Position numbers and translations under genes: made by a program. Positions 27,193 through 29,440 of a stretch of 38,660 nt of DNA are shown here, in pieces. Source of the DNA: Campylobacteraceae bacterium (lineage in GTDB: Bacteria; Campylobacterota; Campylobacteria; Campylobacterales; BB28). A model generated the notes under the pieces. That model was not told the origin of the DNA. It was given only the letters and a program-made list of their open reading frames with translations, and made no database searches. Each line of letters begins with the position of its first letter. The first letter of the stretch is position 1. Location: assembly GCA_016744535.1 (NCBI GenBank), contig JADGEE010000017.1, positions 1-38,660 on the forward strand. Direction: 5' to 3'.

Positions 27193-27305
27193 ATTTACTC
27201 CTATCACAAATTTATAATTATAAAATAAAAATACCTGCGATTATATCATAGAGAGACTTAAAAGCTTTTGGATAGGTCTAAAACTTTATAATTAAACTTA
27301 ATTAT

Positions 27306-27346
27306 CACTAAAAAGTCACAATTTATATAAAATTTGCTAAAATAAA
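27306..27346 (+). repeat. 41-bp repeat upstream of the first recombinase gene (copy 1)
   Basis: This copy begins CACTAAAAAGTCACA and continues with a TTTATATAA arm, an AATTTGC spacer and a TAAAATAAA arm. It matches copy 2 (28384-28424) at 37 of 41 bases. It contains an extended -10-like TGCTAAAAT (27335-27343) and lies 29 bases before the TTG start, so it may be the promoter. The two arms are an imperfect inverted repeat (7 of 9). Confidence 0.75.
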
Positions 27347-27375
27347 ATAAAAGCTTTATTAAGAAAGGTGCTGTT

Positions 27376-28305
27376 TTGAAAATTGAAAAAGCGATGGAAG
27401 ATTTTATATCTCACTCTATTTATGAAAAAAGTTTAAGTCCTAAAACTATAAAGGCTTATAAGATAGATTTAAACCAATTTCAACTATTTATTAAGGATGA
27501 GGATATTCAAAACTTACAAGATATTGATAAAAATATTTTGAGAAAATTTTTGAAACATATCTCAAATGCAAAACCAAAAACTATTAAAAGAAAGATTACA
27601 GTTATAAAAATAATGTTTAATTATTTTGAGTTTGAAGATATTATTATGGTAAACCCATTTAGAAAAATGAAGATAAATATAAAAGAGACTAAAGAGTTAC
27701 CAAAAATTGCAGATTTAAAAGAGACTAAAAAACTCTTATCTTATCTATATAAAAAAAAGAGTAGTTATGACAATAGAGAAGTTCCTAGTTATAAAGCTTT
27801 AGTTAGAGATATTGCAATAATAGAAGTTTTATTCTCAACAGGAGCTAGAGTTTTTGAAGTATGCGAACTTCCAAAAAAAAATATGAGTTTTTCAAAATGG
27901 AGTGTAGTATTCTTTGGTAAAGGCTCAAAAGAACGCTCTATTCCAATAGTACATAATGAAGTAAAAGAGATTTTAAAAGAGTATGCAAATTTATTTAAAG
28001 ATGAATTAGAAAATAACGATTACTTTTTTATAAATCGTATTAATAATAAAATTTCAGATCAATCTGTGAGATTTATGTTAAAAAAACACTCAATGAAGGC
28101 AAATTTAAAAGAGGTTTTAACTCCTCATATGTTTAGACACTCTCTTGCTACAACACTTCTTGAAAAAGGAGTTGATATTCGATATATTCAACATATTTTG
28201 GGTCATAGCTCAATATCTACTACTGAAATTTATACAAAAGTTTCAGATAAAATTCAAAGAAAAATTTTATTAAAACATCCTAGAAAAAATTTTATAGATG
28301 AATAG
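27376..28305 (+). CDS. Tyrosine recombinase, Xer-like (copy 1)
   Basis: A 309-residue site-specific recombinase of XerC/XerD-like length. It has an N-terminal SAM-like DNA-binding domain (about 1-90, LSPKTIKAYKIDLNQFQLFI) and a C-terminal catalytic domain. The full active set is present: Arg158 (TGARVFEVCEL), Lys182 (GKGSKERSIP), His251 and Arg254 (HMFRH), His277 (LGHSS) and Tyr286 (IYTK). The start is TTG with AAAGG upstream. No phage or transposon genes flank it, so a chromosome-dimer-resolution (Xer) role is possible; it is shorter than H. pylori XerH (about 360). It is duplicated by the next gene, about 77% identical without gaps across about 307 residues. Confidence 0.9.
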   Translation: MKIEKAMEDFISHSIYEKSLSPKTIKAYKIDLNQFQLFIKDEDIQNLQDIDKNILRKFLKHISNAKPKTIKRKITVIKIMFNYFEFEDIIMVNPFRKMKINIKETKELPKIADLKETKKLLSYLYKKKSSYDNREVPSYKALVRDIAIIEVLFSTGARVFEVCELPKKNMSFSKWSVVFFGKGSKERSIPIVHNEVKEILKEYANLFKDELENNDYFFINRINNKISDQSVRFMLKKHSMKANLKEVLTPHMFRHSLATTLLEKGVDIRYIQHILGHSSISTTEIYTKVSDKIQRKILLKHPRKNFIDE

Positions 28306-28343
28306 ATGTGTATTTAAGAGTAGTAAAGCTAATATTATTAACA

Positions 28344-28373
28344 AGGGAACTATATAAATCTATAAAGTTCCCT
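28344..28373 (+). terminator. Hairpin between the two recombinase genes
   Basis: AGGGAACT (28344-28351) pairs with AGTTCCCT (28366-28373), then one mismatch and 4 more pairs around loop AATC. It is the most GC-rich stem in this region and lies 39 bases after the first recombinase stop. There is no T-run after it, so it is a terminator-like or RNA-stability hairpin rather than a proven terminator. Confidence 0.45.
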
Positions 28374-28383
28374 ACTTAAAGTT

Positions 28384-28424
28384 CACTAAAAAGTCACATT
28401 TTATATTAAATTTGATAATATAAA
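28384..28424 (+). repeat. 41-bp repeat upstream of the second recombinase gene (copy 2), with perfect inverted arms
   Basis: This copy begins CACTAAAAAGTCACA. TTTATATTA (28400-28408), spacer AATTTGA (7 bases) and TAATATAAA (28416-28424) form a perfect 9-bp inverted repeat. The layout resembles the arms and short core of a Xer/dif-type site, but it also contains an extended -10-like TGATAATAT (28413-28421), so a promoter with operator is equally possible. It lies 26 bases before the second recombinase ATG. Confidence 0.7.
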
Positions 28425-28450
28425 TAAAAAAAATTATAAGGGTTATTGTA

Positions 28451-29398
28451 ATGAAAATTGAAAAAGCGATAGAAGAGTTTATATCTAACTCTATGTATGA
28501 AAAAAAATTAAATCCAAAGACTATAAAGGCTTATAAAATAGATTTAAATCAATTTCAACTATTTATTAAAACTCAAAATATTCAAAGTTTAAAAGATATT
28601 GATAAAAATGTTTTAAAAAAATTTTTGGGACATATTTCACACGCAAAACCAAAAACTATTAAAAGAAAAGTTACAGTTATAAAAACTATGTTTAACTATT
28701 TTGAGTTTAAAGATACTATTGTAGTAAACCCTTTTAGAAAAATGAAAATAAACATAGAAGAGGCTAACGAGTTACCAAAAACTGCTGATTTAAATGAAGT
28801 AAAAAAATTATTATCTTATTTATATGCAAAAAAGAGAGACTTTTCTAATAAAGAAGTTTATAGTTATAAAGCATTAGTTAGAGATATTGCAATAATAGAG
28901 ATGCTTTTTTCAACAGGGGCTAGAGTATTTGAAATATGTGAACTTACACAAGAAGATGTAAATCTTTCAAAGTGGAATATAAAATTTTTTAGTAAAAGTT
29001 CAAAAGAACGCTCTATTCAAATAGTTCATGATGAGGTGAAAGATATTTTAAAAGAGTATGCAACTTTATTTAAATATGAATTAGAAAATAGTGAATATTT
29101 TTTTATAAATAGAATTAATAATGGAATTTCAGATCAATCTATTAGATTTATGTTAAAAAAACACTCTATTGATGCAAATTTAAAACAAGTTTTAACTCCT
29201 CATATGTTTAGACATACTTTGGCTACACTACTTCTTGAACAAGGTGTTGATGTTAGACATATTCAAGATATTTTAGGACATAGCTCAATTTCTACTACTG
29301 AAATGTATACAAAAATTACAGATAAAACTCAAAAAAAAGTTTTACTAAAACATCCTCGAAAAAACTTTATAGTTACTGATAATATAGAAAACACTTAA
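28451..29398 (+). CDS. Tyrosine recombinase, Xer-like (copy 2)
   Basis: This 315-residue paralogue of the preceding gene is identical in layout, with Arg158, Lys182, His251, Arg254, His277 and Tyr286 all conserved. The beta-hairpin that presents the lysine has changed from GKGSKERSIP to SKSSKERSIQ, losing both glycines, and two Cys-flanking segments have diverged. Identity to copy 1 is about 77% over about 307 gap-free residues (counted by hand); divergence is spread across the protein, as expected for an old rather than recent duplication. The ORF is intact. The two could act as a XerC/XerD-like heterodimer or have separate sites. Confidence 0.9.
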   Translation: MKIEKAIEEFISNSMYEKKLNPKTIKAYKIDLNQFQLFIKTQNIQSLKDIDKNVLKKFLGHISHAKPKTIKRKVTVIKTMFNYFEFKDTIVVNPFRKMKINIEEANELPKTADLNEVKKLLSYLYAKKRDFSNKEVYSYKALVRDIAIIEMLFSTGARVFEICELTQEDVNLSKWNIKFFSKSSKERSIQIVHDEVKDILKEYATLFKYELENSEYFFINRINNGISDQSIRFMLKKHSIDANLKQVLTPHMFRHTLATLLLEQGVDVRHIQDILGHSSISTTEMYTKITDKTQKKVLLKHPRKNFIVTDNIENT

Positions 29399-29403
29399 TC
29401 AAA

Positions 29404-29440
29404 AAGTCATTTTTTTTTACTATAATTAAAAAAATGACTT
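29404..29440. repeat. 37-bp palindrome upstream of glgA, enclosing a -10 box
   Basis: AAGTCATTTTTTT (29404-29416) and AAAAAAATGACTT (29428-29440) are a perfect 13-bp inverted repeat with an 11-base centre containing TATAAT (29421-29426), a plausible -10 for glgA. The palindrome could end transcription of the second recombinase or be an operator. Its AAAAAGTCA (29401-29409) repeats the motif at 27310 and 28388. Confidence 0.55.

Follow-up and report, generated by a model that had tools for sequence, protein, structure and literature searches.

The DNA analysed here (the window) is a stretch of 38,660 nucleotides from a 3.02-Mb draft genome of the Campylobacterales, which is divided over 174 contigs and is 99.98% complete. 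Two genes for tyrosine recombinases lie head to tail on its forward strand, xer1 (27376–28305; 309 amino acids, TTG start) and xer2 (28451–29398; 315 amino acids, ATG start), and glgA directly follows the second. Both reading frames are intact and their products are 76–77% identical, in agreement with the original prediction of two intact tandem recombinases sharing about 77% of their residues. Each protein comprises an integrase catalytic domain (PF00589, Phage_integrase; 2e-36 in Xer1 and 3e-33 in Xer2) and a SAM-like N-terminal domain (PF02899, 3e-11 in Xer1). The catalytic R-K-H-R-H-Y set of the tyrosine recombinases is complete in both, consisting of R158, K182, H251, R254, H277, and Y286 in Xer1 and Xer2 alike.

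Each gene is preceded by a 41-bp element, located at 27306–27346 (+ strand; 31-bp core CACTAAAAAGTCACAATTTATATAAAATTTG) and 28384–28424 (+ strand; 31-bp core CACTAAAAAGTCACATTTTATATTAAATTTG) and ending 29 bp ahead of the xer1 start and 26 bp ahead of the xer2 start. The two copies follow the consensus CACTAAAAAGTCACA[A/T]TTTATAT[A/T]AAATTTG and agree at 37 of 41 positions; the earlier description of the element, including its distance of 26–29 bp from each gene, held up on alignment. A search of the genome for further copies, which had been suggested along with it, placed the 30-bp core, with three or fewer mismatches, at just these two positions (control, 0), and a scan with a 24-bp core added one three-mismatch place in this genome and one in the sister species, the chance level indicated by the control. 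When the two units are compared in register, 1–4 of every 10 bases match up to 27295, 7 of 10 at 27296–27305, then 10, 9, 9, and 8 of 10 across the element, followed by 3–6 of 10 in the stretch leading to the start codon. Because its flanks are poorly matched, the element is an island of conservation, not merely the edge of a duplication. Synonymous sites, with pS = 0.31, would predict 69% identity, which the element exceeds at 37/41 (P = 0.001); its excess over fourfold sites, which are 80% identical, is borderline (P = 0.04–0.07).

The element of copy 1 includes a promoter-like site (27315–27343, + strand) of the form GTCACA–17 bp–TG.TAAAAT, which scored 9/12 in a consensus scan, has TG before its second hexamer, and ends 32 nt ahead of the xer1 start, leaving a short 5′ leader. 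The scan as a whole performed at chance (14 sites found, 17 expected), and the main argument for a putative promoter here is its position. An imperfect palindrome of 20 bp (27317–27336 in copy 1) has 8 of 10 pairs matched in each copy, a match that 0.2% of positions in the window attain. The copies disagree in the −10 hexamer (TAAAAT/TAATAT) but hardly at all upstream of it, which resembles a site for protein binding more than it does a core promoter on its own. The favored role for the element is that of a promoter/operator, to which the recombinase itself may bind.

Two predicted hairpins lie in the intergenic regions. The first, AGGGAACTATATAAATCTATAAAGTTCCCT (28344–28373, + strand), between xer1 and the second element, has an RNA fold z of −2.3 to −3.3 and no T-run; it is likely the 3′ end of the xer1 transcript and may act as a terminator. 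The second, between xer2 and glgA (29404–29440; fold z = −4.3), is a perfect 13-bp inverted repeat, AAGTCATTTTTTT/AAAAAAATGACTT, with an 11-nt loop, one of two such repeats in the window. It bears on the claim that the nonamer AAAAAGTCA bounds each gene as a possible target of the enzymes. The nonamer does occur at 27310, 28388, and 29401, as described. Its third copy resembles the elements in nothing beyond the nine bases, and its last six bases fall within the separate inverted repeat, which also takes in a TATAAT just before glgA. A third site or third copy of the element is rejected on this lack of further likeness and on the count of the nonamer (five in the window against 2.0 expected, with at least five in 4 of 100 shuffles). 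The 29404–29440 repeat is likely part of a terminator/glgA promoter region and not the boundary of a recombination unit.

Duplication and unequal divergence

The two recombinases are each other's nearest relatives, with tree support of 100/100, and homology between the units begins just before the element; a tandem duplication that included the upstream element, as originally proposed, is borne out by both observations. Recent gene conversion between the copies was considered and rejected, as no block of lowered dS was found. Before the duplication, changes had already occurred at 16 columns near-invariant among 20 Arcobacteraceae-type relatives, e.g., RVSE to RVFE adjoining the catalytic arginine.

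The ratio dN/dS between the copies is 0.34, and it ranges from 0.19 to 0.39 in each of six segments. Of the columns that do not vary among five relatives, eight are changed in copy 2 and one in copy 1, and those changed in copy 2 include both clade-invariant glycines of the GKG motif. Judged by these substitution patterns, both copies are under purifying selection and copy 2 changes faster. The suggestion that neither copy has decayed is therefore upheld by the catalytic residues and the overall dN/dS, but the constraint on the two is unequal. Copy 2 does have SKSSK in place of GKGSK in the β-hairpin, but it retains a lysine where the catalytic hairpin lysine aligns, which leaves the proposed effect on cutting order speculative. 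The loss of the glycines and the eight-to-one asymmetry would also fit a redundant duplicate, in which xer1 keeps the ancestral function while xer2 drifts without a separate role. Since xer2 has no frameshift or stop, retains its catalytic set, and shows low dN/dS along the whole gene, any loss of constraint would be at most partial, and simple redundancy seems improbable.

Recombinase clade and invertible cassettes

In a maximum likelihood tree, the pair is sister to recombinases of the Arcobacteraceae (support 98/96) within a larger clade that includes sequences from Clostridia, Bacteroidales, and archaea (100/97), and the XerC, miaB-linked Xer, and XerH proteins of the Campylobacterales lie apart. 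Against the XerC/XerD models TIGR02224/TIGR02225, the proteins scored 225/215 and 198/195 bits, below the cut-offs of 335/330; no XerH match was found in this genome at E ≤ 1e-15. Despite the nearness of the pair to miaB, the tree rejected an origin from the miaB-linked Xer found in XerCD-type families; that Xer comes after miaB-DUF374-TM, whereas the pair sits on the opposite side, past hp0268. By its placement in the tree, the pair belongs to this larger clade and is neither XerC/XerD nor XerH.

Its nearest kin, the Arcobacteraceae recombinases, occur singly at each locus and are 47–56% identical to it; no relative above 56% identity was found, nor any relative in phages at the DNA level. 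Among 399 Campylobacterales genomes searched, 13, this one included, carry a clade member at E ≤ 1e-60. The 12 others encode proteins 47–54% identical to the pair, one per locus with two or three in some genomes, and none has an adjacent tandem pair, the arrangement for which a search of related genomes had been suggested. The closest comparisons, WP_026806287.1 of pAFAEC and WP_105918336.1 of pACRY43158/pM830MA, share 50–56% identity over their full length, the domain layout, and the clade, yet these cassette recombinases stand alone and have no 41-bp element, whereas the window enzymes are paired, each with its element. The XerC/XerD and dif system of the Sulfurimonas/Sulfurovum type resembles the pair in protein length (~300 amino acids), SAM-like N-terminal domain, RKHRHY residues, and the use of two enzymes, but its two enzymes, deep paralogues, are encoded at separate loci, unlike these younger tandem duplicates from another clade. 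XerH/difH of the Campylobacterota belongs to the same superfamily and likewise has a site-like element adjoining the recombinase gene; XerH is longer (350–360 amino acids) and ~24–28% identical to the pair, and its gene is terminus-proximal in relatives. XerS/difSL is similar as a module of recombinase and site, but it differs in family (≤105 bits against a cut-off of 267) and in site.

Most relatives of the pair have an ATAAT-N5-ATTAT site 2–50 nt past the recombinase stop codon and an exact inverted copy 1.7–5 kb away, the two enclosing a pair of convergent genes. This form of the site holds across clade enzymes that are only 45% identical, and in some clade members a site lies upstream of the recombinase gene. 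A two-gene segment of 3,458 bp is shared by the Aliarcobacter cryaerophilus plasmids pACRY43158 and pM830MA at 99.9% identity, in opposite orientations within collinear flanks; the segment (L139:6969–10426 and L140:969–4425) lies between AATAATAGGATATTATA sites, adjoining a relative of the window recombinases. Homologous gene pairs in opposite order are also present in G026 and L051. On this natural evidence, the cassette-linked relatives are DNA invertases.

Several features of these cassettes were observed in passing. In the Clostridiales genome COT-073 (RQYD01000045.1, L055:3575–6700), a relative of the pair is followed by a convergent Thoeris pair, ThsB (TIR) and ThsA (SIR2-STALD), bounded by inverted sites, apparently an invertible defense system; a literature search found no published account of one. 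At L051:4974–4997, L139:6969–6985, and L055:4491–4519, the inversion sites hold AGGA or AAGGA just before the start codon of the proximal gene, and the site seems to double as a ribosome-binding site. In the archaeon Methanoflexus mossambicus (L057:142–1054), the gene for a clade member lies between inverted 16-bp sites, TTAATAAAGGATAACT, and may be able to invert.

No inverted ATAAT-N5-ATTAT pair and no convergent cassette were found anywhere in the window, and the 12 clade-type sites in the genome were all single, with no two on one contig (17 in the control). The absence of an inverted site pair from window and genome suggests that the pair has lost its usual cassette, its natural substrate being elsewhere or diverged. 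One candidate substrate is the element itself. The two 31-bp elements might be core recombination sites in direct orientation, represented in a 28-bp form as AAGTCACAATT-TATATA-AAATTTGCTAA and AAGTCACATTT-TATATT-AAATTTGATAA. Exchange between the two would release xer1 on a circle of 1,078 bp, making each site and its gene a small excisable or insertable cassette, although the differing centers would stop these two sites from recombining together. Their size of 28–31 bp and imperfect dyad fit an Xer site, as do their confinement to these two places and the upstream sites of some clade members; in addition, sites adjoin the recombinase gene in XerS/difSL and in most XerH/difH modules (PMC5357621, PMC2731167). 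The element is nevertheless unlike the sites of the clade, no further site rises above chance in the genome or the sister species, and its location also suits a promoter. Moreover, active direct sites would delete xer1, yet both genes have persisted to a divergence of 77% identity. A site function for the elements is possible but doubtful.

Chromosome position and dimer resolution

This genome contains no XerH match and no other Xer-like enzyme, its remaining integrases being mobile-element types or fragments. The difH motif TGAAAAC-N3-A-N-TTTTCA (PMC2731167, PMC3325230) has no exact match in it, and one-mismatch matches fell below the control rate. Most Campylobacterales families carry XerH or XerCD. 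In a genome without XerH, difH, or XerCD, the pair, as the sole Xer-like candidate, might have taken over the resolution of chromosome dimers, as two recombinases from one ancestor with the element as their dif.

The position of the locus argues against this. In each of the 16 near-complete relatives compared, the flanking genes miaB (left) and leuC (right) fall no farther than ~27% from a record end, whereas xerH lies at 47–56% of the record in 10 of 12; the region of the pair is thus probably origin-proximal and far from the terminus, a reading that assumes records beginning near dnaA, an assumption that the xerH positions support. The GC skew of the window has no switch at the locus and, in this draft assembly, mostly tracks gene orientation. 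A link of the pair to the terminus, as had been suggested, is disfavored by these positions. Furthermore, the sister species G001 (88% complete) has phage-type integrases but no Xer-like gene, the relatives G038 and G052 have no Xer at all, and a dif would be expected as one single copy and not as two in tandem. Despite the otherwise empty Xer complement of a nearly complete genome, replacement of XerH/XerCD by the pair is unlikely. Less likely still is a more elaborate arrangement, in which a chromosome devoid of XerH/XerCD would be served by a home-grown two-recombinase system derived from a duplicated mobile invertase, with linked direct sites kept from recombining by their TATATA and TATATT centers.

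The block hp0268-miaB-DUF374-TM protein is conserved across the Campylobacterales (L148, L150, L152, L160, L163, and others). In XerCD-type families an Xer gene comes after it, and both this genome and the sister species keep the block without that Xer; in the sister species, nusA lies beyond hp0268. A species tree from four linked proteins did not resolve the sister family. No PF00589 match was found in the Campylobacterales genomes G038, a single contig, G052, and G002, which leaves no recombinase of this family to account for dimer resolution in them.

A duplicated recombinase unit

The best explanation of the locus, to which a probability of roughly 55% is assigned, is an old tandem duplication of an invertase-type recombinase, probably acquired laterally, together with its own promoter/operator, such that each gene is served by its own element. 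The duplicated unit would consist of the 41-bp promoter/operator and the recombinase gene. Transcription of each gene would start from its element, using the −35-like GTCACA, the 17-bp spacer, and the extended −10, and the imperfect palindrome would probably bind a dimeric regulator or the recombinase itself, the latter amounting to autoregulation. With complete active sites, both enzymes would presumably carry out strand exchange at short sites with two arms. Copy 1 would be the conserved member and copy 2 the faster-evolving one, subfunctional or relaxed. These functional proposals for the pair are drawn from sequence.

Current thinking derives two-recombinase systems, such as XerC/XerD, from ancestors with a single recombinase. 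The pair described here is possibly another such derivation from one ancestor, and none of the relatives found is arranged in tandem. The clade to which it belongs is of interest in its own right, as its members invert modules of two genes, one of them a Thoeris defense pair of a Clostridiales genome. For observing or testing the step from one recombinase to two, a tandem pair that is intact yet unequal, in a genome with no further Xer, would be well suited.
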